Of a stretch of 46,267 bases of DNA, positions 10,421 through 35,745 are shown piece by piece. The DNA is from Ahrensia sp. (GTDB taxonomy: Bacteria > Pseudomonadota > Alphaproteobacteria > Rhizobiales > Rhizobiaceae), in assembly GCA_002698425.1 (NCBI GenBank), contig NZXU01000109.1:1-46267 (forward strand), written 5' to 3'. How positions within the stretch are numbered: position 1 is the first letter of the stretch; the number at the start of each line of letters is the position of its first letter. Under the pieces are notes generated by a model that saw nothing but the letters and a program-made list of their open reading frames with translations, did no database searches and had not been told where the DNA came from. The position numbers and the translations under genes were made by a program.

Positions 10421-13400
10421 ATGCTTGTGCGTTTGGTCGGCATCGTCGCGGTTGCGGTCCTGGCCGTTGGATCCGCAACGGCGCGAAGTCAGGCGCAGGA
10501 AGCTCTCCGGGACTGGAGGTCCGCGCTGGAATCGGCCTCCTGTCCCGGATCTTACGGGCAACCTGCCACTTACGACCTCGATACGATTATCGCAGTGGCC
10601 GCGAGCTATTCGACATCCAGCGTGGCCGACTTCGCGCTCAGAGCCCGCGTGAATGTCGTCGACTATCTGATGTCCGGCTCCAGTCTGGCCCGCGCGCAGG
10701 ATGGCGAGGGGTATGCCGACCGCATACTCGCTGCCAATCCGGGCGGGCTTCAGCTTCTCCGCTCGGACATCGCGCGCTATGGCGAAAGGCTCTGCCCGCT
10801 GATTGGCGTGATCGAAACCGAGGGGCTCGGCGAGATCACGCGCAAACAGATCGAAGTGCGGGATTACTATCAGCCGCAATCGCGCCTCGCTCAGGCGATG
10901 CTCAACCTGCATGGCTGCGGAGCGGGCGAGGCTGACGGGCTTTTCGGAAAGGGCAGCGTTGCGGCCTGGAACCGTGCCGCCGATGGTTCCGGGTTGGCGC
11001 TCAAGGACGAAGGCGGGCTTCCAACGCCGGGCGACATTCTTGCGCTGGCGGAGGCCGGGGAAGGCCGCCCCCTTTGCGCCGCGAACCCGGCGCAGGCGAA
11101 ACGCTTCGATGCGCCGATGCTGCTGCGTACGCTTACCGCCTGCCATGCGGGCAAGGCTCCGGAAACCGCCTGGGCGCCGATCGGATGGCAACTCGCGGCG
11201 CTGGCAAGCGAAGGCGACGTCATCGACGCGGACCGGCTGGAAACCGTTTTGGGCGAGGTGTTCGGCGCCTGCTCCAGCCAGATGGCTCCCACGGAGGAAA
11301 CCGACCGCGAAAGCCGTTCCGATCAAGTCCAGCCATTCCTCAAAACCGTGTTTGCGGCGCTTCCGGACTGGCCGGCGGATCTCGCGTCGATCGAGGCGAT
11401 CTCCAAGGCGACCCGCAAGTCGATATGGAAGGCAACCGGTCTTCCGGAAGAGGATGACGAAGGCCGCTGGAAGACCGCGCTCAGTTCGCTTGGCCTCGGC
11501 TATTATGAGGGCAATGGCCTGCCGCGCCGACCCGATGTCGGTGTCTATCTGGTCGGTCTTGCCAATGAGGGTACGGATCGCTGGACCGGCGGCGACGTCG
11601 CCCTTGTGCGCGGTGCGGTGGCTGGCGTCCTTCCCGACACGCTGCCGGAAGGCATGCGCCAGGCGCTGGCCGATTTGCTGCAGAAGGACGATGCCGGGTC
11701 TGATGAACCGTATAACGACGATGGGGAAGCCGAGCTCGGCGCGTATGCCTATATCGAGCCCTTCTGGGCCGGCGAGAATAACAAGGCGACCGTCGAGCAG
11801 ATCGCGCTCGATTTCAGCGTCCCGATCAGCACCGCGAACAGCGCGGTCGAGCTTGCAAAATCCGTGGCCGACGATCCCGCATTCTCCGTGAAATTACGTG
11901 CCGAGGGCAGCCCCCAGGCCAATGCGATCGTCGCGACACTGCTGCTGGAAGGGTTCGTCGACGGCAAGAAAAATCTACCGCTCGCGTTGCATCACTTCCG
12001 GGCCGCGGCGGACAAAGGCAACAGTTTTGCTCTTCTGAGACTCGCTCAAATGCATGAGCAGGGCTACGGCGTGCCGCAGGATATCGAAGCGTCGCTCGAC
12101 TTTTATCGCGAAGCGGCGGATCAGGGGCAGACGGCGGCAAGCCTCGCGCTGGCGCGGTTTTACGAGACCGGAACCCATGTGCCGCGCGATTGGGACAAGG
12201 CGCTTGCCTATTACCGTGCCGGTCTCGGCCTTGATGACGAAAGCGGCCGGCTGACCGACGGCGCGGCCGGCGTGATCCAGAGACGCCTGTTGAACGGCAG
12301 CGACTTCTTCACCGACGGTCCGGGCCGTTCGGTCCTCGAAGAAGCACTGGTAATCATCGCGACGGTCCGACGCGAAGATATGGGCTGGAACATGCAAGCG
12401 ACCTATGTCGAGTTTGCGATAGCCCTCGGCGATGCCTTTGCAGGTCTCGATGGCGGGCCGACCGTCGATCTCGGAAAGGCTGCCGAATGGTATCGCATCG
12501 CGGATGACGAGGACGCGGATGCCAAACTGATACGCATCCTGCTGGCGCAACCGGAGTTGCAGGCAGACGAAAGCGAGCTTGCCCGGCTGACGCAGGGAAC
12601 GCTTCTCGGGCTCTATCGCACAGCGCCGGGGATCGATGCGTTCAAGGCGGCAGTCGACGAAATCTGCCGGCCTGCCGTGCAGGGCTTCGTCGATTGCGTC
12701 GAGTTCCACCGCGTTGCGGCCCTTGGCGGTTTCGATCCGAATATCGTCGCCTATGCCCATGACTGGCTCGCGCAGGCGGCGGCCGACGAGGAGACGGAGT
12801 TGCGCGAACAGGGGCGGCTGGCCCCTTATGAGAGCTCGATGAAGACGCGCCCGGCTTATGCGATCGCCGGCTGGGTGGATGTGCTCTCCTATTACGGCGA
12901 CCATGCCGGAGCGTTGGAGCCGCTGCGCCTGGTTCGCAACCTCCCCGGAGAAGGCGAAGTCGGCGCATCGCGGGGAGCCGCGTTCCGCCGTGCGCTCGCC
13001 CGCCACCTGGATGGCGGTCCCGAGGCGGTGTGGGAGCCGCTTGCACGCCTGCTGCAGGCGCTTGCGTCGCGTGGCGACGAAGCGGCGCGCGATCTTCTCG
13101 AACTGGCGTCGACCGCGAACGGGCCGAAGCCGGACATCGCGGTCGACATCGATGCGGCCCGCGAACGTTTCGCACTGGCCGAGGGACTTGCCGGCAACAC
13201 GATGGGGCTGGCGTTGTCCGCGCGGCAACTGGCGAAGCTGGAGGCGGATGCCGGCAACAGGCTGCGCGCCGTCGAACTGGAGCTGGTCGCGCTGAATGCC
13301 GACATGGCGCGCTATGCCGTCACCGCTGTCTGGAATGGCCCCATCGAGGCGTCGCTCGGCCGGGTCTGTTCGCTCTCCAAGGCGAGCGAGCAGCTATATG

Positions 13401-15088
13401 CGCTCGACGAGGCGGCAATGGCGCTGACGCTGGCGAAACGCGCGGTCAACGAACTTCAGGATGTACGCCGGCGCATTTCCGGACTGCCGGAACATCTGCA
13501 GTTGTGCTTCCGCGACACGATCTCCGATCACTATCGCTGGCTTGCCGATCTCTTCATCAGCCAGGACCGCCCGGCGGAGGCATCGACCGTTCTCGGGATG
13601 CTCAAATCCTTCGAGACCTTCGAATTTCTCGGCCGTGATACGGAGTTCGCGGGCGACGCCTTCGCGCCGCTGGAGATGAGCCCTGTTGAAGAGGCGCTAT
13701 CCGCGGAGATCGACGCCGTCCGCCCGACCGTGACCGCGATGAAGATAAGGCGGCGCGAATTGCTGCTCAATCGCAAGAAAGGCGAACTGACCGGCGCGGA
13801 AGAAACCGAACTGGCCTCGTTGACCGACACGCTGGTCGCCTCGCGCGAGGAGATGGAGAAGGAACTTGAAGGGCTGATCGCGGCCTCCGACGCGGTGCAC
13901 AGCACGGTCGTCGAGGATCTGGCGCGCAATGTCAGTTCGGTGCGGGCGCATTTGCGCCGCGCCTTCGACGGCAAGGCGGCGGCGATCCAGTATGTCGTCC
14001 TGCCGGACCGGATCGGCGCAATCCTGACCACGGCTGTATCCGAAAGGGTGTTCAGCTGGACCGAGTGGGAAGGCGTGCCGTTCACCGAGGAGCGGCTGAA
14101 TGCGGGGATCGAGGATCTGCGCAAAGCGCTTCAGAACCCGGGCGCCGATCCAAAACCCGCCTCGAAGGCCCTGCACGATCTGGTGTTGCCGGAGGCGCTG
14201 ATGCGCGAATTGAAGGATGCCGGCGCGCAGACGCTGATCCTGTCGCTGGACCGCCGGCTGCGCTACGTGCCTTTCGCCGCGCTCTATGACGGTGATGATT
14301 ATCTCGTCGAGAATTTCGACCTGACACATGCGACCGAAACGCGGTCCGTCGGCGGGGGCGGGGCGTCGCCCGACCGTATCGCAGGATTCGGAACGACCCA
14401 ATCCTGGTACGGTCTCTCGCCTCTTCCGGGGGTCGCCGACGAACTCGCCTCGATCGTACGCGAGGGCGGGGAGGACGCGCAGGGCGTGGTCGAGGGCACG
14501 ATCCATGCCGATGCGGACTTCACGCGCGACACGATGGCGAGCGCGATGATTTTCGGCGACTTCGACGAACCTGCGCTCGGGATCGTCCATCTCGCCTCGC
14601 ATTTCATCCTCGGCAGTTCGGAGGACGATTCCTACCTGTTGCTCGGCGATGGCGACCGGCTGACCGTCGCCGATATCAAGGACAGTTTCGGGATGGATCT
14701 CGATTTCGCCGAGGTCGGCGTGCTGACCCTGTCGGCCTGCGAAACCGCCTATAGCGGGCAGGAGGCGGACGGGCGGGAACTGGAGAGCTTTGCCGCCGTC
14801 GCCCAGCAGAAAGGCGCGCTCGAAATCGTCGCCACGCTCTGGCCGATCAACGACCGGTCGACGGCGGTGTTCATGCAGGAATTCTACCAGCAGCAGATCG
14901 ACAACGGCCTGTCCGTCGCGAGCGCGCTTGCGCAAGTCCAGCGCCAGTTCCTGCGGGGCGAGCACAAGGGCGCCGGCTCGGCATTCCGCTCCGCCAAATC
15001 CAAGCAGAAGGGCGCCGGCATGATCGTGCCGGACGAGACCCATCCCTATTACTGGGCTCCGATTGTCGTTATGGAGGGCACGTCCTGA
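10421..15088 (+). CDS. exported Sel1-repeat CHAT-domain protease
   Basis: A 1555-residue protein. The start at 10421 follows AGGGGG and yields a clear Sec signal peptide (MLVRLVGIVAVAVLAVGS, cleavage near ARSQA-QE). Residues about 156-188 look like a peptidoglycan-binding-1 helix bundle (LHGCGAGEADGLFGKGSVAA). Sel1-like repeats lie around residues 500-610 (EQGYGVPQDIEASLDFYREA) with more helical repeats after them. The C-terminal CHAT (caspase HetF associated with TPRs) domain spans about 1190-1553, with catalytic His1394 in VHLASHF and Cys1440 in LSACETA. It should be a Cys peptidase in the periplasm or outside. It is the first gene of a three-gene operon, and its CHAT half resembles that of the protein at 30777-33605. 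Confidence 0.9.
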   Translation: MLVRLVGIVAVAVLAVGSATARSQAQEALRDWRSALESASCPGSYGQPATYDLDTIIAVAASYSTSSVADFALRARVNVVDYLMSGSSLARAQDGEGYADRILAANPGGLQLLRSDIARYGERLCPLIGVIETEGLGEITRKQIEVRDYYQPQSRLAQAMLNLHGCGAGEADGLFGKGSVAAWNRAADGSGLALKDEGGLPTPGDILALAEAGEGRPLCAANPAQAKRFDAPMLLRTLTACHAGKAPETAWAPIGWQLAALASEGDVIDADRLETVLGEVFGACSSQMAPTEETDRESRSDQVQPFLKTVFAALPDWPADLASIEAISKATRKSIWKATGLPEEDDEGRWKTALSSLGLGYYEGNGLPRRPDVGVYLVGLANEGTDRWTGGDVALVRGAVAGVLPDTLPEGMRQALADLLQKDDAGSDEPYNDDGEAELGAYAYIEPFWAGENNKATVEQIALDFSVPISTANSAVELAKSVADDPAFSVKLRAEGSPQANAIVATLLLEGFVDGKKNLPLALHHFRAAADKGNSFALLRLAQMHEQGYGVPQDIEASLDFYREAADQGQTAASLALARFYETGTHVPRDWDKALAYYRAGLGLDDESGRLTDGAAGVIQRRLLNGSDFFTDGPGRSVLEEALVIIATVRREDMGWNMQATYVEFAIALGDAFAGLDGGPTVDLGKAAEWYRIADDEDADAKLIRILLAQPELQADESELARLTQGTLLGLYRTAPGIDAFKAAVDEICRPAVQGFVDCVEFHRVAALGGFDPNIVAYAHDWLAQAAADEETELREQGRLAPYESSMKTRPAYAIAGWVDVLSYYGDHAGALEPLRLVRNLPGEGEVGASRGAAFRRALARHLDGGPEAVWEPLARLLQALASRGDEAARDLLELASTANGPKPDIAVDIDAARERFALAEGLAGNTMGLALSARQLAKLEADAGNRLRAVELELVALNADMARYAVTAVWNGPIEASLGRVCSLSKASEQLYALDEAAMALTLAKRAVNELQDVRRRISGLPEHLQLCFRDTISDHYRWLADLFISQDRPAEASTVLGMLKSFETFEFLGRDTEFAGDAFAPLEMSPVEEALSAEIDAVRPTVTAMKIRRRELLLNRKKGELTGAEETELASLTDTLVASREEMEKELEGLIAASDAVHSTVVEDLARNVSSVRAHLRRAFDGKAAAIQYVVLPDRIGAILTTAVSERVFSWTEWEGVPFTEERLNAGIEDLRKALQNPGADPKPASKALHDLVLPEALMRELKDAGAQTLILSLDRRLRYVPFAALYDGDDYLVENFDLTHATETRSVGGGGASPDRIAGFGTTQSWYGLSPLPGVADELASIVREGGEDAQGVVEGTIHADADFTRDTMASAMIFGDFDEPALGIVHLASHFILGSSEDDSYLLLGDGDRLTVADIKDSFGMDLDFAEVGVLTLSACETAYSGQEADGRELESFAAVAQQKGALEIVATLWPINDRSTAVFMQEFYQQQIDNGLSVASALAQVQRQFLRGEHKGAGSAFRSAKSKQKGAGMIVPDETHPYYWAPIVVMEGTS

Positions 15089-15768
15089 TGCCTCGTATCG
15101 CTACAACCTTTGCGGCCATCGCCATTTCCATTCCGCTTGCGGGGGGCACAGCCGAAGGGGCGGAACCGGCAAGCTGCTACACGCTGGAAAAGGGATCGCC
15201 GGATGCTGGCGTCGGCATGATGACCATCGACCGGGACGGATCGATCACTTTTGCGACCACCGTCAATCCCTATGCGGCCTACACGGATTCCTGCGAATTT
15301 CCCGAGAACGGCCCGGTCGAATGTTCGCTTGGATGCGATGGCGGGCGCATCACGCTGATGCGGGCGGGCGAAGGCTTGCTCGCGGATTTTTCCGGCCGGC
15401 GTATCGAGTCTATCCGCATGGAAAGCGTGGTCACCGCGCTCGGGACCATGGAAGCGGACGGCGCCGATCTGTCCGGCAGTTTCTACCTGAAGCCGGCGCC
15501 TGAATCGGTCTGCCAGGCCTCCGACAACCTCGCCCAGCCGCTTCTGCTTGAACCCGGCGACCTCTATCCCGCGGTCAAAAGGCTGGAGAAGTATCTGCTC
15601 GTCGGCGGGTATTTCGCGGATGCCCCGGACTGGTACTACACGGCCGAAACCGCGGAGGCCGTGAAGCTTTTCCAGAGCGAAATCGGCGTCGAACCGACCG
15701 GCAAGACCGACCGCGAGCTGCTCGCGCTTATCGGCGTTCACGCCTCCTACGCGTTCGGGGGATGCTGA
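15088..15768 (+). CDS. secreted protein with C-terminal peptidoglycan-binding domain
   Basis: A 226-residue protein with a Sec signal peptide (MPRIATTFAAIAISIPLAGG, cleavage near AEGA-EP). The middle is a cysteine-containing region I do not recognise. Residues about 150-215 match a peptidoglycan-binding-1 domain: YPAVKRLEKYLLVGGYF, then TAETAEAVKLFQSEIG and PTGKTDRELLALI. The start codon overlaps the CHAT gene stop (TGATG), so the two are translationally coupled, and the caspase gene follows after 13 bases. It may anchor the operon's proteases to the cell wall or sense wall damage; that is inference from domain and operon. No catalytic motif is visible. Confidence 0.8.
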   Translation: MPRIATTFAAIAISIPLAGGTAEGAEPASCYTLEKGSPDAGVGMMTIDRDGSITFATTVNPYAAYTDSCEFPENGPVECSLGCDGGRITLMRAGEGLLADFSGRRIESIRMESVVTALGTMEADGADLSGSFYLKPAPESVCQASDNLAQPLLLEPGDLYPAVKRLEKYLLVGGYFADAPDWYYTAETAEAVKLFQSEIGVEPTGKTDRELLALIGVHASYAFGGC

Positions 15769-15781
15769 GTCCCGGCAAGCG

Positions 15782-18700
15782 ATGCAGGTGTTCTCCCCGA
15801 TCCATTCATTAGCCGGCCTTTTCCGCAGCCTGACGGCAAACGCGCTCGTCGCAATGACTGTAGCCCTTTGCGGCTTCGCGGGGCAGACACTGGCTTCGTC
15901 CGCCGATGGAAGCAGCGGATCGTCCGTCACCTTTCATTATGCGGACGAAGCGGAAAACGATGAGGTGGTGATCTATCTCCGGGCCGTCCGGCGCTACATC
16001 ACCGCGCCAGCCGAGGATGGCTTTTCCACGGCACCCGACGTGACCACCGCCATCGCACGGTATGGCTCCGTTCAAAAAAGGGAAGATGGCGCGCTCGTCA
16101 CGGATATCACCGTCAACCGGCAAAATGTCAGGCGGGGTTCGAACCCGGAGAGCGAGACGATGGACCCGTTCTATCCGGTCAGGACAGGGCGGTACCGGAT
16201 CGAGGGAACGGATACGGACGACAAGGCGCTTCGCTATCTCGAAAAGGGCGCAGACGGGACGTTTGTCGAGGCCGATCTTCCGGAGGACGAGGCTGCCAAG
16301 GCGCTGGCGTTTCTGGGCGGTGCGCCGTTCTACGAGCGCTTCGGACACTATCTCGACGACAAGACCTTCCAGGTCGGAGAAGCGGTCGATCCGGGGCCGA
16401 CGTTCAACGACGTTCTGGGCGACAACACGACCTGGCGGACGCTCACCCTGGAGGACGTGGGCACACGCTGGGGGCGCGAAATCGCGCGGTTTTCCATTGA
16501 AGCCGGCGCCGAGGGCAGCGTGCCGCTGTCCGTGCGATGGATGGCCAATGTCGATGTCGAAACGGGCCGCACCGTCAGCTTCAGCCGCGAAATCACCTCC
16601 GATAAGCCGTCTTCGATCAAGCAGGGCGACGGAAGCGACACATTTCTGCATGTCGCCTGGCAATTCGACACGCAATACCGTCATTCCTTAGTGCCGGTCG
16701 ATCGCTCGACAGTCGAGGTGGTGAACCCGGCATTCATGGCGCCGGGAGGCGACAGGCTGGCCGATATCGCCTTCGTACCATCAAGCGGATCCCTGATCCT
16801 GCTGGAGCAGGCGGCGCCCGGCGTGTCCGGCAAGAGCCGGCAGACGCTCGGGATCTGGAATGTCAGAAGCCAGAAGGTGACGAAAGTCATTCACTCGGAT
16901 TTCGGCGGGCGCATCTTCGGATCCTCCACCGCCCCGCTTCTGCTGCAGGCGGATGACGATCTGTCGATCAAGGGCTTCATGATCCAGAAGGACGGGTTCG
17001 AAGGCTTTGGCCATTTCCTTCGCTTTTCCACCGAGCAAGACTTCACCGCTATGGATGTTCTCGGGGTCTACGCGGCGGTCGGAACCAATCTGGGGGAAAT
17101 AGGGTTCGTGAATGCGGGCCATGACGAGGAGATGGGGCTGTACGACGTCTCGACGGAGCCCGTCATCGCCGTCTCCGTGTCGGCGTCGGCAAAGCGCATC
17201 GCCAGCGTCGATCGCGCAGGGGTTCTGCGGGTCGACATGCTCGATTTCCCGGATCGGTGCGGACGCGGGGATTTCCTGTCGGCCTATTGCGGCGGGGGCC
17301 GGATTTCACTCGGGCCCAGGGTGGCCGAAAAGCCGCTCGGCGCCAGCCAATGCCTGGAGGTGAGCGCGCGAAGCCTGCGCATGTCGCCTGACGGCGCCTT
17401 GCTGGCCTGGGCGGAGCCGGGTGTCGGACCCGATTGCCGTGCGGGCGGGCGGATCATCATCGAAGCGCTCGATACGGGTATCCGGCGGATGGTCAGGGGG
17501 ACGGTGTTTGCGTTTTCCAAAGACAGCGCACGTCTCGTCACGGAGGCCGGCGTTTACGAACTCGGAGTGGCCGACCCGCAGGCCGAAGCATTCGATCACG
17601 CCATCGAGGGTGCGAGAAAGCTGGTCGTCGCGGATGATGCGGCGCTGGCCTTTGTTCTTGGGGGCGATGACTCCGTCTTCATGGTCGATCTGAAAACCCG
17701 CTCCGTCCTTGGCGATCTTGTTTCCGAGGCGGGCTATGAGGACGTCTCCGCCATTCTGGGGCGCGCAATCATCGACAATCGCCTCTGGTCCGTCACCGCC
17801 AACGGGATCGTGATCGCCGAAGAACCCGAGACGAACCGGACGGAATATCAGGACGTTCTCGCGCTGGCGGGTGCGAAAGCTGGCGGTGCGCGGCTGACGG
17901 ATGCCGAAATCCGGCGGCAGGGACAGCAAATCATTCTGGCCTATACGGTCAGTGGGCCGGGCGGTGAGCGGACGCATCTTGCCCGAATGACGCGGCGGGG
18001 CTGGCGGCATCTTGGAGACTTCGAGACTTCGAAGCTGCCGCTGGCGCGCGCGCTCGTCGTGGCGGAAGGGCAGGTGTTCCTGCTCGCCGGCGACGGGCTC
18101 GCGGTTCTGGATGACGAGGGGCTCGTGGTCAGCAGACTGCCAGAGGATACCGGTGCGGCGGAAGTCACTGACCTGAAAGCCGGGCGAGGGCCGTGGAAGG
18201 GCCGTCCCATCTTTGTCCGGAATACGGATCCGGGCGGGTATCTCCAGTCCGTCAGTCTCGCGATCGGCCATTTGGACGGGGATGCGGTGACGGTCGAAAA
18301 AAGCTTCCCGCTGCACGAGCCGGATCGCTGGAACTTCACCAGCGATACGCCGCTCGCCATAAGCCCGGACGGGCGATATGCGGCCGTGGCGAATATGCGG
18401 GCGCCCGACAACGGGAAATGGTCGGAAAATGTCTCGCTCATCTTCATCATGGACCTCGCCAACGGTGCGCGCATCGCAGAGATCTTTCCCGGCTGGGCGG
18501 GGAATGTCACCGCTTTGGCTTTCGATGCCACGGGCCGGACCCTGGGGATCGGGACCGATAGCGGCCGTGTGGTCCTGGAGGATCTGCGCACCGGGGCCGT
18601 CCGCCAGTCCTTCCAGGCGCATGATGCCGCCGTCGCGTCGTTGTCCTGGGACGGGACCGGTCTTGTCACGCGGGGGCGAGAGGGCGTGATCCGGATGTGG

Positions 18701-20206: not shown

Positions 20207-20218
20207 TCTCGCGCATAT

Positions 20219-22671: not shown

Positions 22672-22681
22672 GGCTGGCGCA

Positions 22682-27300: not shown

Positions 27301-27318
27301 GTCGTCGGAGCCGACTAA
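24313..27318 (+). CDS. exported TPR CHAT-domain protease
   Basis: A 1001-residue protein. It begins at a TTG with a full GGGGAGG site at 24301-24307; no in-frame ATG would give the signal peptide (ARAVLLLLCLVGAPCLSVNA, cleaved before QT). Tetratricopeptide repeats fill residues about 35-460 (for example ALHNLAAVVARQGRIAEAEP), a coiled segment follows, and the CHAT domain covers about 640-1000. Catalytic His855 is in FATHGLV and Cys906 in LSACNTA. The GGEGLSGLASAFLYAGARS and SHWPV segments are textbook CHAT. It is a monocistronic gene between two minus-strand genes for related small secreted proteins, and its CHAT domain is less like the other two. Probable periplasmic Cys peptidase. Confidence 0.9.
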   Translation: MVFRCAKGARAVLLLLCLVGAPCLSVNAQTLSEDDLIRKTFDLTMQGRALVEAGNFAEAERLFRDVLQMQRQAATPSPLSVASALHNLAAVVARQGRIAEAEPMARDALAMREANGAVDNALVQSWQLLASILKDSGRLAEAEEMAAKAVDRTLNGSDVDRTDLIRNAATLAALQAENGDLGAANQLLGQLMPMLPDLSGHDRVQVLNVAGRIASLGGDTANAETWYREALSQAAGLPRTKDWTAQDEATLLNNLGALLSQQGRLADAQGLFADGARVLAEAGLGQTPLAATIFDGLGEVYRGQFLYQEAYDTQRKALDIRIAIFDSPHPEIGVSFSNIGLTLLRAGEVEYAVASLEQAVRIQRATGDILRLARAESNLSAAYFLLGRAQDAIGVSREASVIFEENRPTGHSDVVTSLFNLAWLQLSAGEAAPARDVARKALDLYKLNTARLGADETIGAAELREKRRQVMAVVAALWETDPATGLDEAFRAAQWAQSSTAAQVVRRVAARFAAGEGAIADLARRKQDLVNEWRAADRQFLNAVGTSGAANKVSVTLQGRIDAITANIRTLDDEIEARFPDYARLTQPDVLSIADIQALLGPDEALLMPVTTSDETYVFAMSRDAAKWAQTPLSEEDLDREIRALRKDLDPLGAARAAKRLKQPMAVSGPTFDRATAHDLYRKLIAPVADVLDDRGTVFVVKEGALAGLPLSVLVASPPQGADTDPLALRDTDWLARHHAFATLPSAMSLQTLRRFSNPRQAEAAFAAFGDPDFAGNEETEQPVQIAGYFNRGVADTRAVRSLPPLPGTRREVQGLATLLGVSDDAIRLGGQATEEAVKRSPLVSKAAIVTFATHGLVAGDLDGLAEPALAFSAPQTPSELDDGLLTASEAAELDLAADWVILSACNTAAPDGTPGGEGLSGLASAFLYAGARSLLVSHWPVRDDAAALLTQGAIAARAKDADIGHAESLRRSMLGLLDDPDLPGGSHPSVWAPFVVVGAD

Positions 27319-27351: not shown

Positions 27352-28023
27352 TCAGTTCGTGGTGAGCGCGTAGGTGTCGGCGAAGTCGCTCTTGTTTTCC
27401 AGCGTGACCTCGAAGGGACCGGTCGCGCCCGGCGTCCAGCCGCACTGGTTGATATTGCTCGAATCCGTCTGCGAGCAAACGAGCGCGCCGCGTTTGTCGC
27501 GCACGAACAGGTCGATATCCGCCTTGCCGAGTCCTTCCGAATAGACTTCGGCGAATTCGCCGCCGACGAAGTTCAGATTGCTGTATCTGTGGGTGGAATG
27601 GGCGGCGAGGCGGCCTTCGGTATAGACCGCCTGGCCTTCCAGGCCCTTCGATCTGGATGTGCGGATATCTTCGGCAAGGCCTGCAATCACTTCGCTGCCG
27701 CCGGAAAGCCGCACGGCCTCTTCAAGCCAGCCTTCCCAGGCGAAAGCCTGTCCCGACCTGTCGCCTGCACCGGTTTCACCGTCCTCAAGCGTGCCGAGCT
27801 CGCCGGCGCTCATGCCGGAATCCTTGCGCAGTCGCGCCGCCGAAAGCATCAAAACCGGATCGGATGTTTCGATCGCGCGGTCGTGCAATACACGCGACAT
27901 TCGGATCAGTTTCAGCGCTTCTGCCTGCGGGTCTTCCGGAGCCGACTGGCCGAAACTCGGTGTCGCGATGGCGCTCGCGAGGATCAGCGCGGGAACGGCG
28001 ACCGCGCGCAAGAGGATTTTCAT
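27352..28023 (-). CDS. secreted protein with PPC-like C-terminal domain, paralogue of the 23680-24072 product
   Basis: A 223-residue protein with a Sec signal peptide (MKILLRAVAVPALILASAIA, cleavage near SFG-QS). Residues 35-125 are helical and align with the small secreted protein at 23680-24072. Residues about 150-223 look like a bacterial pre-peptidase C-terminal (PPC) beta-sandwich: KADIDLFVRDKRGALV, then GPFEVTLENKSDFADTYAL. PPC domains are found on secreted peptidases, where they aid export or substrate contact. Here it stands on a separate protein convergent with the middle CHAT gene, 33 bases away. A role as substrate or adaptor of the CHAT protease is inferred from position only. Confidence 0.8.
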   Translation of the reverse strand: MKILLRAVAVPALILASAIATPSFGQSAPEDPQAEALKLIRMSRVLHDRAIETSDPVLMLSAARLRKDSGMSAGELGTLEDGETGAGDRSGQAFAWEGWLEEAVRLSGGSEVIAGLAEDIRTSRSKGLEGQAVYTEGRLAAHSTHRYSNLNFVGGEFAEVYSEGLGKADIDLFVRDKRGALVCSQTDSSNINQCGWTPGATGPFEVTLENKSDFADTYALTTN

Positions 28024-28167: not shown

Positions 28168-29613
28168 ATGTCGCGATCGACAATGTTGCGCCGCATTGCG
28201 GGATTGGCCGCGGCGACCATGCTGGCAGGCTGTGTCTCGGTCAATGACACGCTGAATTCTTTCTCCGAAATCCAGCTCGAGGAAACGCCGGGTTTGACGG
28301 CGCAAGCCGACGACATGAGCGCCGACAGCGATTTCGTCGCACTCGCCTTTTCCGGCGGTGGCACGCGCGCGGCGGCCTTCGCCTATGGTATTCTCAGCGA
28401 AATGCAGGAGACCGGGATCCCCGGAAAGGACGGTGTTTCGGCCTTCGACGAAATCCGGTTCCTCTCGGGCGTCTCGGGCGGATCGGTGACCGCTGCCTAT
28501 TTCGGTCTCAAGGGCGAGCGCGGCTTCGCCGACTTCAAGCAGAATTTCCTCGTCAGGAACGGCGAGGAATATATGCGGACCTCGAAGCTCGACCCGGTCA
28601 ATCTGCTGCGTGCGGCGAGCGGCGGCGTAAACAGCCGGCAAGGGTTCGGGCGCTGGCTGGACGAGAACCTTTTCAAGGGCGCGACCTTCGCCGACCTCTA
28701 TCGCAACAAGCAGATCACCACCTGGATCAACGCGTCGGACATCTACAACCGGACGCCGTTCACTTTCGAGCCGGAGACGTTCCGCGCTCTGTGCAGCGAC
28801 CTGAACAGGCTGCCGGTCGCCGAGGCTGTCGCGGCGTCGGCCGCGGTGCCCATCGTCTTCTCGCCGATCGTGCTGGAAGCCTACGGGCCGCGTTGCACTT
28901 ACGAACCGCCGGCATGGCTGACCACGGCCGCCTACAACACCGAGGCCTCGGCCTCGCTGCGCGCCTACGCACGGGCGCTGCGCAACTACCGAGACCCGGA
29001 GAAGATGCGCTACGTCAAGCTGCTCGATGGCGCGGTGACCGACAATTTCGGCTTGACCGGCATCTCGATCGCGCGCGGCCGGGCGCAGACACGTCACGCC
29101 CCCTTCAGCGAGGAGGAGGCGGTGGCGCTGGAGCGCATGGTCTTCATCGTCTCCAATGCCGGGCGCGAGCTCGACGGCGACTGGGCGAACGAGGTCGCCG
29201 GTCCGGGCGGTCTCGACCTTGTGTCGGCGATCGCGGATACGGCGATGGCCTCCGCGACACGCGAGGGCTTCGACGCCTTCAAGGCCGCGATGGAGCGCTG
29301 GCAGCAGGATCTGATCGCCTATCGCTGTTCCCTGAGCAATTCGGAGGTCAGGAAATTCGGCGGCGACCCGCGCAAATGGAATTGCCGCAACCTGAAGCTC
29401 TATGTCGCCGAACTGCGCTTCGACCAATTGGACAGCCAGATGGAGGCGAAGCTGAACGAGGTTCCCACCCGTTTGAAGCTGCCGCGCGAGCAGGTCGATC
29501 TGTCGATCGAGGCGGGCCGCCTGGCGGTGCGCCAGCACCCGGTCTACCGCAATTTCCTGCGCTCCTATGAGGGGATTTCCGCCAAGGGCAAGCGCCGCAT
29601 TTCCCCGGACTGA
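28168..29613 (+). CDS. patatin-like phospholipase lipoprotein
   Basis: A 481-residue protein with a lipoprotein signal peptide: lipobox TMLAGC, lipidated Cys22. The patatin domain begins near residue 55 with the oxyanion motif FSGGGTRAAAFAYG, then the nucleophile Ser103 in GVSGGS, and the catalytic Asp287 in LLDGAVTDN (DGA type). It should be an acyl hydrolase of membrane lipids, anchored in the outer or inner membrane facing the periplasm. The region after residue 350 is helical and unrecognised. The ATG at 28168 follows GGGGAG. It diverges from the PPC-like gene and is convergent with the serine protease. Its placement inside the protease island suggests a lipid-attacking effector, which is inference. 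Confidence 0.9.
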   Translation: MSRSTMLRRIAGLAAATMLAGCVSVNDTLNSFSEIQLEETPGLTAQADDMSADSDFVALAFSGGGTRAAAFAYGILSEMQETGIPGKDGVSAFDEIRFLSGVSGGSVTAAYFGLKGERGFADFKQNFLVRNGEEYMRTSKLDPVNLLRAASGGVNSRQGFGRWLDENLFKGATFADLYRNKQITTWINASDIYNRTPFTFEPETFRALCSDLNRLPVAEAVAASAAVPIVFSPIVLEAYGPRCTYEPPAWLTTAAYNTEASASLRAYARALRNYRDPEKMRYVKLLDGAVTDNFGLTGISIARGRAQTRHAPFSEEEAVALERMVFIVSNAGRELDGDWANEVAGPGGLDLVSAIADTAMASATREGFDAFKAAMERWQQDLIAYRCSLSNSEVRKFGGDPRKWNCRNLKLYVAELRFDQLDSQMEAKLNEVPTRLKLPREQVDLSIEAGRLAVRQHPVYRNFLRSYEGISAKGKRRISPD

Positions 29614-29616
29614 CAC

Positions 29617-29645
29617 AAAAAAGGGCGGCGGAAAATCCGCCGCCC
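29617..29645 (-). terminator. rho-independent terminator between patatin and serine protease genes
   Basis: A perfect 10-bp stem (GGGCGGCGGA at 29623-29632 and TCCGCCGCCC at 29636-29645) with a three-base loop. The six A at 29617-29622 become a T run on the minus strand, so it terminates operon B after the serine protease. The stem may also slow transcription from the patatin side. Confidence 0.85.
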
Positions 29646-29671
29646 GTGATGCCGTTTCGGAAAAAGCCGGC

Positions 29672-30721
29672 TTACTTGTAGCCGAGCTTGGTCAGCACCC
29701 AGTCGGCGTAATTGCCGGTGCGGGTATAGGCGGAGAACTTGGCGTCGCGGTTGCAGCCCACGCCATCCATCGAAGCCAGCCCCCAGCTGACGATGCCAGC
29801 CTGGATGTATTTGCCTCCACCGACGCCGATGACCAGCGGTCCACCGCTGTCGCCGTCGCAGGCACCGCGCGGGCCTTCCGGCGTGCCCGAGCAGATCATG
29901 TTCTCGGTGAGCGGAACCGGGACCCTGCCGATCATCTCGTCCCAAATCGCGTTGGCGTCGTTGCCGGAAAGAGCGAGCGCGTTGGCCGCCTGCTGAAAGT
30001 AATTGGCCGCCGCCTTCATCGGGCCGGCGAGAAGGGCCGCGTTGCAGACATTGCGATCGATGATCTCGATGCGGCCTTCGCGCAGTTCACGCGACGGCGT
30101 GCCGGCTTCCGTTCGGCCCCAGCCGGTCACGATCGTTTCGGTGTTCGGCTTTTCGAGGATATCGGCATATTCGCCAGTCGGAATGGTGATCGTCTTGAAA
30201 TTGGCGTTCGGCACGCGTGCGAGCTTGATCAACGCGATGTCGTTGTCGAAACCGTTCGGATTGTAGTTCTCATTGACGATGATCTGCGCAACCTCGACGA
30301 AATCGCCCTCATTGGAGATGCGGTTCGTGCCGACCATGATGCGGGTCTTGGCGGGATCGATGATGTAGTAGCCGTCCTGGCGCTGCTCGACCACGCAGTG
30401 GGCCGCCGTCAGGACCCAGTCGTTCTGGATCATCGAGCCGCCGCAGAACTGCGAGAGAAGGTCACGCTCGACGTCGACGCGCATCAGCGCGACCTGCCAC
30501 GGCCAGGCGCCATCGGCGGCGATCTTGCCGTTCAGGACGCGCGACCGTTCCTCTTCGGAAGAGCCTTCCAGCAGCGCGGCCTTTTCCGGGCTTGCCGCGA
30601 AGTTGAACGGCATGTCCGGCGACCCTTCCTTTTTCTCCCACATCGGTTCCGCCGACGCCATCGCCGGCAGAATAAGGGCGATCGCCACGGCGCCGGCGAT
30701 CTTGCTCAGTGTTTTCCTCAT
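29672..30721 (-). CDS. secreted chymotrypsin-fold (S1) serine protease with zymogen-like activation site
   Basis: A 349-residue protein with a Sec signal peptide (MRKTLSKIAGAVAIALILPA, cleavage near ASA-EP). A pro-segment of about 37 residues ends at Arg61 before VLNG, the layout of trypsinogen-type activation (R before IVGG). The triad is His108 (TAAHC), Asp161 (DNDIAL) and Ser292 (GDSGGP), with Asp291 ready to pair with a new N-terminal Val62. The residue six before Ser292 is Gly286 (GACDGDSGG), not the Asp of trypsin, so specificity is more likely for neutral side chains. It is the last gene of operon B, 55 bases after the CHAT gene, and is followed by a strong terminator. Confidence 0.93.
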   Translation of the reverse strand: MRKTLSKIAGAVAIALILPAMASAEPMWEKKEGSPDMPFNFAASPEKAALLEGSSEEERSRVLNGKIAADGAWPWQVALMRVDVERDLLSQFCGGSMIQNDWVLTAAHCVVEQRQDGYYIIDPAKTRIMVGTNRISNEGDFVEVAQIIVNENYNPNGFDNDIALIKLARVPNANFKTITIPTGEYADILEKPNTETIVTGWGRTEAGTPSRELREGRIEIIDRNVCNAALLAGPMKAAANYFQQAANALALSGNDANAIWDEMIGRVPVPLTENMICSGTPEGPRGACDGDSGGPLVIGVGGGKYIQAGIVSWGLASMDGVGCNRDAKFSAYTRTGNYADWVLTKLGYK

Positions 30722-30776
30722 CGTCAGTCCTTTCAGGGTTGCGATTGTGTTGCCTCTAGCGGGTACGCGGAAACCG

Positions 30777-33605
30777 TCACAGCCAGTTTCCGATCAGGAT
30801 GAAGGACGACCAGAAATAGGGATGGGAAAATCCCGCTGACGTGTCGGCCTTGCGTTTCTGTTTCGACAGGGCGGCGCGCTCGCCGCCTTTGGATGCGACA
30901 AGCGTTTCGCCGCCACGCATCATGGCGATCTGGGCGGCGCGCAGCGCATCGGCTTTCGACATGCCGCCGCGCATCATGTTGTCGTAGAAGTCTTCCATCA
31001 GCTTCGCCGTCGCTTCATCTGCGACGGGCCATAGCGACGCCATGACGGCGGAGGCTCCGCTCATCTGCGCGGTGGTGCCGAAGCCTTCGATTTCGGATCC
31101 GTCGCCGCCGCCGCCGCGGGCGGTCTGGCAGGCGGACAGGGTCACGAGGTCTATGCCCTTGAAGGAGAGCGCGCGCTTGTTGCGGATATCGGAAAGCGGA
31201 AGATGCGCGCCATCGCCGAGCAGCAGGAACGAGTTGTCGATCTGGCCCGGCATCAGGTTGAAATGGCTGGCGATATGCAGGATTTCCGGCTTCTTCAACA
31301 GGGTGAGGCGCAGGCTCTTTTCGGAGAATGCGTCGTCGAATTCGGCCGGGCCCTCAAGTATGCCGGCGTCGTCCTCGCCGGCGAAGATCCGTTCGATCTC
31401 GCGCTTCACGCCAGGCAGCGGAGAAAAGCCCGGATGCGCGGCGGTGACCCCGAAGCCGGCGCTTTTCGCGGCGAGCCGGTCGCCCCGGCGGAACTGCGTC
31501 GGCACGGAGGGCGTGTAGAGCGCTACCGCGTAATCCTCGACGAAATAACGTTCGCCGTCGTAAAGCGCCGCGAAGGGCAAATAGCGCAGGAAGCCGTCGA
31601 GGTTGAGCATGACGACTTCGACGCCGGCTTCTTCCAGGTCCTGTGCGACAGGTCGGACGACCACGTCATAAAGCGCCTTCAGCTTGTCGGTCGTATCGGC
31701 GCTGCGGGCCTCGATGGCGACCAGCGCCTCGAATGTCATGCGGGATAGCTCGACCTTCGAGACGTCGGACTGTTTATGCAGCGTGACGCTGGGCAGGGTG
31801 ACGAAAATATGCGTCGCCTTGTCGATCGCGGCGACCTGCAGGATCGCGGTCTTCTGCTCGAAGTTCTCGAGGATCGCCTGCTGGCTTCCAACCGCATCGA
31901 ACTGGCTTTCGAAAGACTGTTTGCGGTCTTCCTCGACATCCGCGAGGAAGGCGTCGACCTGCTGGTCGAAATTCTCCGCCGCCCGGTCGATGCTTGCCTG
32001 CAGGACGTCGATCTTCTCGATATCCTCGTCGGTCGCCTCGTCGCGCTCGATCTTGCCGATCAACTGATCGAGTTCGCGCGCGGCGGCGAGCGGGAATTCC
32101 GACAGGGCGGCGATCTTCACCTCCTCGTCCTGTTCGGAGTCATTGAGCAGCGCGCGTGTATCGCGCAGGTCGGCGGAGGCGTCGCGGCGCAGGAATTCGA
32201 AGACTTCCTGCTCCTTTTCCATGTTGAGGACGGCCTGGGCTTCCGTAAAGCGGCCTTCCTCGATCAGCATGTCGGCGAGGTGCTGGTAAAGCCAGCGCCA
32301 TTCGTCTTTCAGTTCCTTGCTTTCGCCTTCCGACAGCGACTTGTTCGCCGAGCGAATGGATTGCTGCGCATTGACCGCGAGCTTGGCGAAAGCGATGGCC
32401 CGTTTCGGATCGCCCTTGGCGCGAAAGGCGCGCGCGAATGTGTCGAAGGCCCAGCGCTGTTCCTCCAGCGTGATCTCGTTGTTGGCCTTGATGTAAGGCA
32501 TCGCCTTCATGGTCCAGCGGATCGCCGAATCCTGATTGCCGAGATAGTGCTCGATGATGCCGATATTGATCGCGACGATACCGGCATTGCGCGAATAGCG
32601 GCCTTCGTGACGCGCGATGATCGTCTCGGCCTTGAGGAACCAGCGTTTCGAGACCTCGTAGCTTTCGAGGCGGCGATGCACCCAGCCGATATTGTTGGCT
32701 GTCCAGCCGATCTGCATCGCATCCGGTCCGAGTGCCTCGTTGTAGCGCAGCAGTGCCTCGGTATAGACATCGAGCGCTTCTTCGTAGCGGTGCAGTCCCT
32801 CGAGGCTGATGCCCTCGTCGAGATAGGTGTCGGCGACTTCGCTGCTCATGTCGCCGAACTCGTTGATGCGCACTGTCCGCGCCTGCCGGAACATCATGAT
32901 GGCCTGTTCGTATTTCGACAGACCCTGCAGAGCGGCGCCCCTGCTTTCGAGCGCCGTGGCGACACCCGCGGCGTCGCCGGCCATGGCGGAAATCGTCATG
33001 GCCTGTTCATAGATCTCCATCGCCTCGGTGAAATGGGCGGTGTTGAGGCTGACATCGCCGAGCATGAACAGGATCGCGGCCTTCCACTTCCGGTCCTCGC
33101 CCTCGGCGTCCGCGTAGAGATCGAGCGCCATCTTCAGATATTCGCGTGCGCGCTCGAGATTTTCGGCGTCGCCCTTGCTGCGGTATATCCAGCCGAGATT
33201 ATAGAGCGCCGGCTTCAGGCCGCCGATATCCTCGCCGTCCGTCAGACCATAGGTCTCGACCGCGCGGCGATAGTAGTCGGCCGCTTCGTCGTATCCGTCG
33301 GCGCCTCGCTGCATATGGGCGTAGCCGAGGGCCGAATAACTCTCGGCCTTCCATTTGAGGCTGTCTTCTCCAGCGGCGTTTTCGAATGCGTCGGCCGCCT
33401 TGAGGAAGGTGGTCGACGCGGACCCCAGTTCCTCGCGCTCCAGATAGGCCCAACCGAGATCGTAAAGCGCGCTGGCGTCGCCGCTCTCGGCGGATTTGAG
33501 CAGGGCCCGGTCGATGGGCGCCTCGCTCTCCGCTTCCTGCGCGAGGGCAGGGCCGGCCAGCACGAGGCCCAGTAGCAGAATTGCCGATGCGAGTGTCGTC
33601 TTCAT
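30777..33605 (-). CDS. exported TPR CHAT-domain protease
   Basis: A 942-residue protein. The start at 33605 gives a clean signal peptide (MKTTLASAILLLGLVLAG, cleaved at ALA-QE) after GGGGAG; the open frame extends upstream without sense. TPRs fill residues about 30-470 (ALYDLGWAYLEREELGSAST), a charged coiled-coil region follows (about 500-580), and the CHAT domain occupies about 590-942, with His781 in LHIASHF and Cys826 in LSACQTA. The CHAT half shares RYLPFAALYDG, FSPLPGV and LLLGDG with the Sel1/CHAT protein of operon A. It lies 22 bases after the metacaspase gene and 55 before the serine protease gene. It is a probable periplasmic Cys peptidase in a three-protease operon. Confidence 0.9.
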   Translation of the reverse strand: MKTTLASAILLLGLVLAGPALAQEAESEAPIDRALLKSAESGDASALYDLGWAYLEREELGSASTTFLKAADAFENAAGEDSLKWKAESYSALGYAHMQRGADGYDEAADYYRRAVETYGLTDGEDIGGLKPALYNLGWIYRSKGDAENLERAREYLKMALDLYADAEGEDRKWKAAILFMLGDVSLNTAHFTEAMEIYEQAMTISAMAGDAAGVATALESRGAALQGLSKYEQAIMMFRQARTVRINEFGDMSSEVADTYLDEGISLEGLHRYEEALDVYTEALLRYNEALGPDAMQIGWTANNIGWVHRRLESYEVSKRWFLKAETIIARHEGRYSRNAGIVAINIGIIEHYLGNQDSAIRWTMKAMPYIKANNEITLEEQRWAFDTFARAFRAKGDPKRAIAFAKLAVNAQQSIRSANKSLSEGESKELKDEWRWLYQHLADMLIEEGRFTEAQAVLNMEKEQEVFEFLRRDASADLRDTRALLNDSEQDEEVKIAALSEFPLAAARELDQLIGKIERDEATDEDIEKIDVLQASIDRAAENFDQQVDAFLADVEEDRKQSFESQFDAVGSQQAILENFEQKTAILQVAAIDKATHIFVTLPSVTLHKQSDVSKVELSRMTFEALVAIEARSADTTDKLKALYDVVVRPVAQDLEEAGVEVVMLNLDGFLRYLPFAALYDGERYFVEDYAVALYTPSVPTQFRRGDRLAAKSAGFGVTAAHPGFSPLPGVKREIERIFAGEDDAGILEGPAEFDDAFSEKSLRLTLLKKPEILHIASHFNLMPGQIDNSFLLLGDGAHLPLSDIRNKRALSFKGIDLVTLSACQTARGGGGDGSEIEGFGTTAQMSGASAVMASLWPVADEATAKLMEDFYDNMMRGGMSKADALRAAQIAMMRGGETLVASKGGERAALSKQKRKADTSAGFSHPYFWSSFILIGNWL

Positions 33606-33627
33606 GAGATCAACTCCCCGGGCAGCC

Positions 33628-35745
33628 TTACTCGGCCGTCGAGCCTGGCGGCAGGATGTCGAGGGCGACCTGCGCGATGCCGGAGCCGTCGTCCTCCTTC
33701 GTCTTGCGTCGCGCCGCGCGTGTCTTCTCGCCAAAGCCCGCCTCGGCCAGCATGTCCCGGAACCCACCGCGCGAGGCGCCGGCGGCGCGGGTTCGCCCGA
33801 TCGCCGGCTGGGCGAGCCATGAGAAATCGGCCAGCGCGGTCTGCGGTTCGGCGGGCGTGACGATGCTGATCAGCCTTTCGCGTCCATATTCGCCCTCGAT
33901 GATCTCGAGCAGGCCGTCCCGCAGCGTCTCGCCGGGATTGATGCGCCCGTTATACATGAAGTCGATGGAATAGCTGACGCCGACATAAAGGATGTTCAGA
34001 TCGAGCGGGCGGTTCGAGGTGTTCCTGGCTTCGAGATACATCTCGTCGCCCGGTTCCAGCCGCGGGATGGCCGGGGGAGCCACCGGCGTGCGCTCTCCGG
34101 TTTCGGCGGACTGTATGTAGTAGGTCACCTCCAGCCCGCCGCCGCGGCTCGAGAAGGAATCCCCGAGCTTGAGGAGGTTGGCGACGCGGGCGATGCGCGC
34201 GAGGCTCTCGGAAAGGATGTTCACGGTCTCGCCGCTGTCGCGGGTCGTGTAGGAAATCGAGATCGTCTTGTCGGTGCCTTCCTCGATGCGCTCGGCGCCG
34301 GCCGGAACCAGCCAGAGCGATCCGCCGGCCACCTGAAGATAGATGTCGGCGCGGTCCTCGGCCGGGACCAGTTCGAGCCTCAGGCCCTCGCGGTCGGCGG
34401 CTTGCAGGCCTTCCATGACCGCCTGGACAGCGTCGCGCTGATCGTCGGAAACGGTTGCCGGGTCCGGCATGGCGACGGTGACGCCGAAGCTCATCTCCTC
34501 GGCGGCTTTGCGGGCGTAGTAGCCCGGCTCGATCATCACGAAACCGCCGTCGACGATCTCGAATTCCGACTGGAAGTCGTCCGTGCCGGTCACCCGGATC
34601 GTCGCCACCTTGTCGTCGTCGCTTGCCGCCGGGCCGGGCAGGAGGGTCAGTTCGTCGCCGACCGAGAGACCATGGAGCCTGCCGCCGGAGAAGATGCGCT
34701 TGCCGCCTTCCTGCTTGACCGGCCATTGCTGGACCCTGCCGCCATGGCCGATATCGGCTCCGAAGACCGGATTGTCGAGCGCGCCCTCGAAGAGCGGCGT
34801 CGGCTGGACACGGTAGCCGGTGGTGTAGCGGCGCAGGATTTCCTCGCCGAGCTGGCGGTAGGTCAGGGCCGGGTTCTGCGACAGCGCCTCGAACAGGGTG
34901 AAAGTGAACAGCCCGTGCGAGACACGGTCCGGATCGCCCTGGGGCAGGCGCATTTCCGGGGTCGTCTGGTTTGTCTGCGCCGCATAGAAATAGACGAACT
35001 GGCCTTCGCCGGTTCCGGACGTTTCGAGTGTTGCTGCTTCGGGAGCAGGCGAGCCCGAGCGGGTGCGGACCGGCTCGACCGCGTCCAGCACGTCTTGCGG
35101 AATGCCGAGCGCGGTCGCGCCGAGCTTGCGCGACTTTTCCACGTCCAGCGGATCGCCCGACGGGCCGGCGCGGGTGACCGTGCCGGAATGGCAACTGTCG
35201 AACACGGCCCAGACATTGGCGCCCTTGTCGATGATCCGGTTGATCATCTCGCCGAGATCATCATCGACAAGCGCGTTCGGGATCGTACCCGTGCTCATGT
35301 CCCAGTTGGAGATGTCGGAGGGCAGGAAGAGTTCGTCGAGACCGTCCTGTTCCTCGCCCTCGACGCGGGCCGGCGCCTGTGAGCCATGGCCGGAAAAATG
35401 CAGGAAGACGAAATCGCCGGCCTCCGCTTTTTCCGCAAGGGCGGCGAAGGCTTCCTGAATGTGGGCGTTGGTGGGAGCGGCAGCCCCGTCAATGCCGTCG
35501 GCGAGCAGGGTTATACCGTCTTCGGTGAAGTCGATCGGCGCGCCGTCGAGCAGATATTCATGCACCAGCTTCGCGTCGTTCACGGGACCGGCGAGCCAAA
35601 GGGTCTCGTCCAGGTTCTCGTATTTCGACACGGCGACCACCAGCGCATAGTTGTTTTGCGCGAGCGCCGGAAACGCCAGCAAAACTCCGAACGCCACGTT
35701 TGCGGCCAGTGCGACGCCGCACTTGCGAAGAAACCTGTTTGTCAT
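33628..35745 (-). CDS. exported metacaspase-like (C14) protease with C-terminal DUF4384-like region
   Basis: A 705-residue protein. It has a Sec signal peptide (hydrophobic core VALAANVAFGVLLAFPA, cleaved at ALA-QN) and a metacaspase domain over about residues 30-290. His120 is in FLHFSGHGSQ and Cys185 in VFDSCHSGT; Asp183, two before the Cys, and the segment EEQDGLDELFLPSD are typical of type I metacaspases, which cut after Arg or Lys. Residues 320-420 look like a small beta domain, and about 540-660 resemble a DUF4384 domain (RLEPGDEMYLEARNTSNRPL). The C-terminal 50 residues are basic and disordered-looking. First gene of operon B. Probable activator of the downstream protease, inferred from specificity and gene order. 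Confidence 0.9.
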   Translation of the reverse strand: MTNRFLRKCGVALAANVAFGVLLAFPALAQNNYALVVAVSKYENLDETLWLAGPVNDAKLVHEYLLDGAPIDFTEDGITLLADGIDGAAAPTNAHIQEAFAALAEKAEAGDFVFLHFSGHGSQAPARVEGEEQDGLDELFLPSDISNWDMSTGTIPNALVDDDLGEMINRIIDKGANVWAVFDSCHSGTVTRAGPSGDPLDVEKSRKLGATALGIPQDVLDAVEPVRTRSGSPAPEAATLETSGTGEGQFVYFYAAQTNQTTPEMRLPQGDPDRVSHGLFTFTLFEALSQNPALTYRQLGEEILRRYTTGYRVQPTPLFEGALDNPVFGADIGHGGRVQQWPVKQEGGKRIFSGGRLHGLSVGDELTLLPGPAASDDDKVATIRVTGTDDFQSEFEIVDGGFVMIEPGYYARKAAEEMSFGVTVAMPDPATVSDDQRDAVQAVMEGLQAADREGLRLELVPAEDRADIYLQVAGGSLWLVPAGAERIEEGTDKTISISYTTRDSGETVNILSESLARIARVANLLKLGDSFSSRGGGLEVTYYIQSAETGERTPVAPPAIPRLEPGDEMYLEARNTSNRPLDLNILYVGVSYSIDFMYNGRINPGETLRDGLLEIIEGEYGRERLISIVTPAEPQTALADFSWLAQPAIGRTRAAGASRGGFRDMLAEAGFGEKTRAARRKTKEDDGSGIAQVALDILPPGSTAE

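Follow-up and report, generated by a model that had tools for sequence, protein, structure and literature searches.

Whether caspase-fold proteases of bacteria may form a proteolytic system outside the cytoplasm is the question raised by positions 1-46,267 of contig NZXU01000109.1 from Ahrensia sp., the stretch of 46,267 bases analyzed here as the window (63% GC, with no tRNA found). Five intact caspase-fold genes were located at 10421-35745, of which three encode CHAT proteins (A1, M and B2) and two encode C14 proteins (A3 and B1), and they stand in an island with genes for a peptidoglycan-binding protein (A2), an S1A serine protease (B3), a patatin-like lipoprotein and the smaller proteins X1, X2 and Y1. 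The island is not a product of chance. Judged from sequence, its parts are very likely exported; their catalytic sites are intact, purifying selection acts on them, and several alphaproteobacterial lineages keep them together. We tentatively propose that the island encodes a conserved extracytoplasmic system of proteolysis with the predicted exported Arg/Lys-type metacaspase B1 at its centre, which would work by a cascade, a reading that falls a little short of probable.

Caspase-fold proteins of the island and their export

The metacaspase B1 (33628..35745, minus strand, 705 aa, predicted to be exported) scored 62.9 bits for Peptidase_C14 (cut-off 21.4) and carries a conserved C-terminal region of its own. 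Its catalytic pair H120/C185 was invariant in an alignment of 20 sequences, and the two Asp residues of the S1 pocket (Asp57 and Asp183 in B1), which presumably make a pocket for basic residues (Arg/Lys), were retained in 37/37 C14 domains. The nearest solved structure by sequence was yeast Mca1 (E 4e-18), with the active-site part aligned; the alignment also covers an acidic stretch that we take to be the calcium site, and whose acidic residues are not universal across the 37 C14 domains. By these features, B1 is predicted to be a type I metacaspase/orthocaspase (peptidase C14B) of the Arg/Lys type. Neither A3 (82.7 bits) nor B1 (26.7 bits) reached the threshold of 140 bits for the EACC1-associated caspase (NF047832), and a search of 50,697 phage records with B1 gave one match, covering 23% of the protein.

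The other C14 protein, A3 (15782..20206, plus strand, 1474 aa, predicted to be exported), joins a propeller with weak WD40-type matches to a caspase domain (Peptidase_C14 48.3 bits, cut-off 21.4). All three CHAT proteins exceed the PF12770 cut-off of 24 and hold a His/Cys dyad: A1 (10421..15088, plus strand, 1555 aa) combines Sel1 repeats (57 bits) with CHAT (163.5 bits), while M (24313..27318, plus strand, 1001 aa, TTG start; 169.6 bits) and B2 (30777..33605, minus strand, 942 aa; 196.2 bits) combine TPR with CHAT, and each is predicted to be exported. The genes, coordinates and domain make-up that an earlier note, made from the sequence of this DNA alone, had given for operons A and B and for M were reproduced with Pfam. 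Its claim that the five proteins keep both catalytic residues also held, the dyad being present in 46/46 CHAT and 37/37 C14 aligned proteins, the five window proteins included.

Signal peptides were judged by a rule-based score for a Sec signal or a lipobox. A Sec signal was scored for A1 (17), A2, A3 (12), M (19 from the TTG), B1, B2 (16), B3, X2 (14) and Y1, and a lipobox for the patatin-like protein, so that the Sec signals which the earlier note had assigned to all five caspase-fold proteins are likely. The value for A3 is the lowest of the five (its Ahrensia orthologue scored 17), and that for M depends on the TTG start at 24313, just upstream of which stands GGGGAGG. With free choice of the in-frame start, a signal was found in 38/46 CHAT and 35/37 C14 proteins versus 81/327 genes of control stretches, and with gene-caller starts in 19/46 and 21/37 versus 45/327; many of the flagged control genes are probably true exported or membrane proteins. 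The LysR regulator and the dehydrogenase subunits near the island showed no signal by the same score, and the MocR-type regulator at 39428-40924 was wrongly flagged as exported, revealing that the free-start score gives false calls. At the related loci L127, L129, L130 and L131, every gene for B1, CHAT, serine protease, patatin or full-length Y1 passes with a free start; the failures there were M in L127, whose copy is cut, and one small Y1-like gene in L129. The ratio of nonsynonymous to synonymous substitution rates (dN/dS) against Ahrensia orthologues, computed for nine island genes with M, X2 and the membrane pair outside the computation, ranged from 0.06 to 0.20, which points to purifying selection on the island genes. 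A near relative of the window is the Ahrensia metagenome-assembled genome SAT55, with B2 89% identical in the best segment.

Conservation of the B1 neighbourhood in relatives

Among 121 relatives, CHAT was detected in 35, C14 in 69 and a B1-like protein in 32, many of the B1 matches covering the caspase domain only; in the alphaproteobacterial class the B1 profile matched 57/385 genomes, three of the matches covering >470 of its 710 positions. The order B1, CHAT, serine protease, patatin and Y1 is kept at L127, L129 and L130 (genomes G001, G005 and G006), where B1 is 93%, 71% and 68% identical to that of the window, and L131 (47%) keeps B1, CHAT and serine protease. More distant B1 homologues stand with CHAT and three serine proteases (L145), with patatin, CHAT and Y1 (L146), or with CHAT and a shared exported gene (L149 and L150, the copy in L150 matching the DUF900 hydrolase family), and other distant loci contain X2, X1 and in some cases a second caspase, such as the propeller-C14 protein of L137, which resembles A3.

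Across the 25 loci chosen by B1, CHAT was found at 9, serine protease at 5, patatin at 4, Y1 at 8, the X2-X1 pair at 9 and a second C14 at 10, and at least one partner family was present at 23/25 (the exceptions being L132 and L144) versus 0/18 control stretches of 20 kb, one of which held a peptidoglycan-binding protein. These control stretches were hand-picked at round coordinates in 11 genomes, mostly B1 carriers, and are not random. The B1 loci comprise 23 from the genomes of 19 relatives, with short caspase-only matches and contig fragments left out, and two (G493 and G289) from the search of the 385 class genomes, from which G125 was omitted because its match spans under half the profile. 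Neither L240 nor the plasmids described below are among the 25. Partners were counted on all open reading frames (ORFs), the window-trained gene caller having under-called AT-richer contigs, and the counted loci had also served to refine the profiles. Co-occurrence in relatives, which the earlier note had named as its own refutation test, was thus found, the neighbourhood of metacaspase and CHAT being conserved. The X2-X1 type of B1 locus lies near a polA homologue at 8/10 loci (L133-L142; polA was named by Pfam for one), which suggests a chromosomal position inherited vertically within one clade.

In G005 and G078, several C14 ORFs were also observed close together within stretches of 20 kb, five at L251, three at L252 and four at L253.

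Recurrence of the gene set on plasmids

A homologous set in another order was found within about 25 kb of plasmid unnamed9 of Pseudosulfitobacter pseudonitzschiae H46, which encodes caspases, CHAT proteins, Y1 proteins and further exported proteins (two of each), one S1 zymogen with Arg at its activation site and one patatin lipoprotein; the B1 homologue is 41% identical. The cluster also holds a two-component pair and an HtrA-like PDZ protease, the latter labelled from its sequence, and unrelated genes are interspersed. Of the 11 counted parts, ten pass the score for a signal or a lipobox, and in the remaining one, a TPR protein, a signal can be made out by eye; the kinase and a cytochrome oxidase subunit, both membrane proteins, are flagged too. 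A plasmid stretch of Pseudosulfitobacter sp. DSM 107133 carries caspases, serine proteases, patatin, Y1 and the two-component pair. Sulfitobacter THAF37 harbors a TPR-CHAT protein, a B1 homologue, a hydrolase, a mechanosensitive channel and a caspase of 1472 aa that is 41% identical to A3 over 84%, and its CHAT protein and long caspase score for a signal. Y1 matches were present in 48 of 72,556 plasmid records, 46 of them from Pseudosulfitobacter and two from Sinorhizobium (four inspected), and the same genus counts were obtained in the B1 search of plasmids. In Sinorhizobium meliloti, one plasmid (L260) has a caspase between two Y1-like genes, and gene sizes together with a Y1 match point to the same layout on a second (L263).

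Further caspase arrangements were seen on other plasmids. On Rhizobium leguminosarum pRLTp73_3, a lysozyme gene is surrounded by a run of five genes annotated as caspase family; the lysozyme and the caspases that are complete, four in number, score as exported. On Rhizobium gallicum pRGM101b, a B1 homologue is split over two successive ORFs, either a putative pseudogene or a sequencing error, beside a trypsin-like and a C14 ORF. Azospirillum brasilense p3 has a tandem of two long CHAT genes close to a caspase gene, flanked on one side by transposase genes.

The serine protease B3 as a probable zymogen

Operon B runs on the minus strand in the order B1, B2 and B3, with gaps of 22 and 55 bases, and probably ends at a terminator-like hairpin after B3 (29623..29645, minus strand; 10 pairs, of which 9 are G-C, and a T run). 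B3 (29672..30721, minus strand; Trypsin 164.6 bits; predicted to be exported) falls in the S1A chymotrypsin family by its triad and by a basic activation site before the motif I/V-x-G/N-G. The site reads SR↓VLNG, and the specificity pocket has Gly at position 189 and Ser at 226, as numbered from an alignment to kallikrein; the Asp189 or acidic residue 226 of trypsin specificity is absent from B3. Plasma kallikrein, complement factor I and MASP-2 are among its highest-scoring relatives of solved structure. Among 13 distinct S1 homologues, the activation site is Lys or Arg in all 13, and residue 189 is Gly in seven, Ser in two, Asp in three and unreadable in one. The pair Gly189/Ser226 is common to B3 of the window, the proteases of L127, L129, L130 and L131, and both Pseudosulfitobacter proteases. 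Since such a pocket is not trypsin-like, cleavage by B3 at its own Arg site is not expected; self-activation is therefore improbable, and another protease would be needed. The metacaspase B1, as the Arg/Lys-type enzyme of the same operon, is a candidate activator.

Operon A and the accessory genes

On the plus strand, A1 is followed by A2 (15088..15768, 226 aa, PG_binding_1 36.2 bits, predicted to be exported), whose start overlaps the A1 stop, and then by A3. The pair A1-A2 recurs at locus L180 of genome G005 and, as annotated, also stands on pSMR1-1 of Pseudosulfitobacter and on a plasmid of Roseateles XES5, where the match to A1 spans two annotated genes and an OmpA-family gene precedes the pair. 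A3 adjoins A1-A2 at none of these three places. Among the loci examined, the three-gene operon A is confined to the window and the Ahrensia relative, and a full-length A3 was found among the 121 relatives in the Ahrensia genome only, other matches being partial. A CHAT link to the cell wall recurs, the CHAT protein of L186, which follows an X2-X1 pair, carrying PG_binding and PAN domains. A peptidoglycan-binding domain inside A1 had been suspected from a motif, and Pfam gave no match at E up to 1.

The repeated layout of CHAT, caspase and accessory gene, from which the earlier note had argued, was an overstatement. Operon A occurs elsewhere as A1-A2 without A3 and the two operons are not copies, in Sulfitobacter an A3 homologue accompanies those of B1 and CHAT, and M adjoins operon B in L127 only, lying apart from it in L129 and L130. 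CHAT alone also does not predict a caspase, a C14 ORF being present at 4/38 CHAT loci away from B1. These 38 loci (L151-L188) omit the CHAT genes at eight B1 loci, L128 and fragmentary CHAT matches, so the CHAT-caspase link is understated; with the nine omitted loci added, a C14 gene is present at 13/47.

The earlier note did not list the genes of the patatin lipoprotein and Y1, both predicted to be exported and both lying between M and B3, nor the X2/X1 pair (20219-21210); the island thus has more exported genes than the note gave. The patatin-like phospholipase (28168..29613, plus strand; Patatin 53 bits) is a predicted lipoprotein with an LAGC lipobox. Y1 (27352..28023, minus strand, 223 aa, predicted to be exported, 87% identical to an Oricola sp. 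protein) was modelled with AlphaFold2 as four helices and an eight-strand jelly roll at a predicted local distance difference test (pLDDT) of 82. Foldseek matched the jelly roll best to 3afg, the C-terminal part of a secreted subtilisin, followed by collagenase accessory domains, GOLD domains and carbohydrate-binding modules (3jqw and 5sv5 being among the matches); the matches cover the model only partly, so the fold is a common one and an accessory-domain reading would be loose. M is preceded by two adjacent membrane-protein genes (21736-23161), which have no Pfam match and whose homologues also adjoin operon B in L129 and L130, and by a small Y1-like gene (23680..24072, minus strand; E 1e-8 to the Y1 profile over 47% of the profile), predicted to be exported (signal score 14) from a start 12 codons upstream of the called one.

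X1 (20219..20809, minus strand, 196 aa) and its partner X2 (20806..21210, minus strand), a small Cys-rich protein predicted to be exported, are convergent to A3. Alignments of X1, which is 91% identical to an Ahrensia sp. and 92% to an Oricola sp. protein, reveal a single membrane helix at the N-terminus and two paired, conserved Cys residues; it has no Pfam hit of its own and is a putative DUF4760-type protein, PF15956 being assigned to 25/40 homologues. Its model is helical (pLDDT 85), with a best PDB match at E 1.1. X1 was rejected as a strict marker, its profile having matched 2/385 class genomes and 9/297 order genomes. Three strong matches (G001, G078 and G661) lie beside caspase or CHAT genes, two of them among loci already fetched, and seven weak DUF4760 matches (G447, G595, G684, G682, G589, G524 and G559) have no partner family nearby. 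Downstream of the island, at 39428-40924, stands a gene for a GntR/aminotransferase (MocR-type) regulator.

Proposed cascade and its alternatives

By analogy, a TPR- or Sel1-CHAT protein would sense an envelope ligand or damage and act as initiator. A2 would anchor A1, itself a CHAT protein, in the peptidoglycan. The metacaspase B1 would become active after the CHAT step and cut the Arg site of the B3 zymogen, and active B3 and the patatin lipoprotein would be the executioners acting on envelope proteins and phospholipids, the part of patatin again being suggested by analogy. Y1, with a jelly roll like the accessory domains of secreted proteases, may serve as a docking or restraint factor. At its weakest step, the scheme would make the system a response to envelope breach that leads to damage limitation or lysis. 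The order of cleavage, the trigger and the phenotype are inferred. Taken to its full extent, the proposal is doubtful: it would give bacteria a zymogen cascade in the envelope, carried on chromosomes and spread on marine plasmids, where the combined action of a CHAT sensor protease and an Arg-specific metacaspase switches on a non-trypsin S1A protease and sets a phospholipase free.

Several observations weigh against the proposed system. Serine proteases with Asp189, which could activate themselves, occur at L145 and L240; a basic activation residue is usual in S1A zymogens, so B1 is not singled out as activator, and other host proteases could activate B3. Neither the serine protease (5/25 B1 loci) nor patatin (4/25) is obligatory, and 34/38 CHAT loci away from B1 have no C14 ORF, those with one being L153, L175, L187 and L188. 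CHAT within the plasmid set was found on one record, the stretch of DSM 107133 showing none. The export score is home-made, and the THAF37 B1 homologue and hydrolase fail it at their annotated starts.

The same genes might instead be a nutritional or offensive set of exoenzymes digesting algal or bacterial proteins and lipids, clustered for co-regulation and with no cascade, which we regard as unlikely. The parts look exported, many of the plasmid carriers are marine, their records giving diatom cultures, sea water and a plastic particle as the origin, and an exported lysozyme lies among exported caspases in Rhizobium leguminosarum. However, metacaspases and CHAT proteases are narrow and regulated in the studied cases and are here joined to large repeat regions, patatin is a lipoprotein and hence membrane-bound, and no type II secretion gene occurs among the 19 window proteins scanned.

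Decidedly unlikely is a periplasmic suicide device in which damage by phage or predator would trigger the cascade and lyse the cell, as an envelope counterpart of abortive infection by caspases. Plasmid carriage and reshuffling would suit it, and activation of a pro-effector by a protease is established for intracellular defence, for example in canu, according to PMC12799240. Yet PADLOC 2023 run on ten island proteins returned generic caspase/TPR hits and otherwise weak ones (LmuA at 23.8 bits for B3, Effector phospholipase at 18.8 bits for patatin), with no known system recognized among them; the X2-X1 type lies near polA with no defence island visible, and the named window neighbours of the island are metabolic or regulatory genes. 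Housekeeping degradation of damaged proteins in the periplasm, to which the two-component pair and HtrA-like protease of the plasmid cluster and the conserved chromosomal place of the X2-X1 type near polA would be suited, is improbable, since the distribution of B1 is patchy (32/121 relatives; 57/385 class genomes) and a more even one would be expected of envelope quality control.

Comparison with known systems

Secreted caspase-fold proteases, such as the gingipains, are known. With these, and with exported bacterial metacaspases suspected since 2012 (PMC3501461), the earlier note's statement that described CHAT/caspase systems act in the cytoplasm was too sweeping. Multi-metacaspase operons in Alphaproteobacteria, with possible signal peptides and extracellular domains, are noted in passages of PMC3501461 and PMC4933709. 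The bacterial metacaspases and orthocaspases treated there have the C14 domain in common with the island, while partners of the CHAT, S1A zymogen, patatin and Y1 kinds are a feature of the island that those passages do not describe. A literature search over titles and abstract openings, with subscription papers mostly outside its reach, found no description of the exported combination, and the functional studies of bacterial C14 and CHAT proteases that it found concern intracellular enzymes. A conserved exported set would place caspase-type signalling in the envelope, where bacterial caspases have hardly been studied, and would offer a ready test system for the role of exported prokaryotic metacaspases, with the clear prediction of an Arg cut in a serine protease that should not cut itself.

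In phage defence, a caspase or trypsin-type protease activates a linked dormant effector, as reported in PMC12799240. The canu caspase-nuclease loci and the trypsin-nuclease pairs of Hachiman/AVAST described there resemble the island in having a protease beside a dormant effector, whose activation is inferred for the island, and TPR partners; their effector is a nuclease and their role anti-phage, whereas the island parts carry predicted signal peptides. A canu locus is marked by a linked gated nuclease and an Ig-like domain, and no nuclease was detected among the 19 scanned window proteins. Craspase, the type III-E CRISPR complex of gRAMP and TPR-CHAT, has the TPR-CHAT architecture in common with the island and an activity controlled by a partner, but the TPR-CHAT proteins of the island look exported and sit with a metacaspase and a serine protease, and no gRAMP/Cas7-11 or CRISPR gene is present among those 19 proteins. 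Bacterial gasdermin operons, like the island, mix caspase-fold and trypsin-fold proteases in one operon and have a membrane end point, whereas the island has a patatin lipoprotein and predicted export; no gasdermin match was given by Pfam among the scanned proteins, bacterial gasdermins being divergent.

Gingipains and clostripain have a caspase fold, Arg/Lys specificity and an extracytoplasmic place, as is predicted for B1, but belong to other peptidase families, and we know of no such gene set of which they are part. The animal S1A cascades of coagulation and complement rest on S1A zymogens with an Arg site that are activated by another protease, as is likewise probable for B3; in the island, by contrast, the candidate activator is a metacaspase, and the homology is confined to the S1A domain. 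If the proposed system is true, it would be a prokaryotic, caspase-driven counterpart of complement or clotting, acting outside the cytoplasm.

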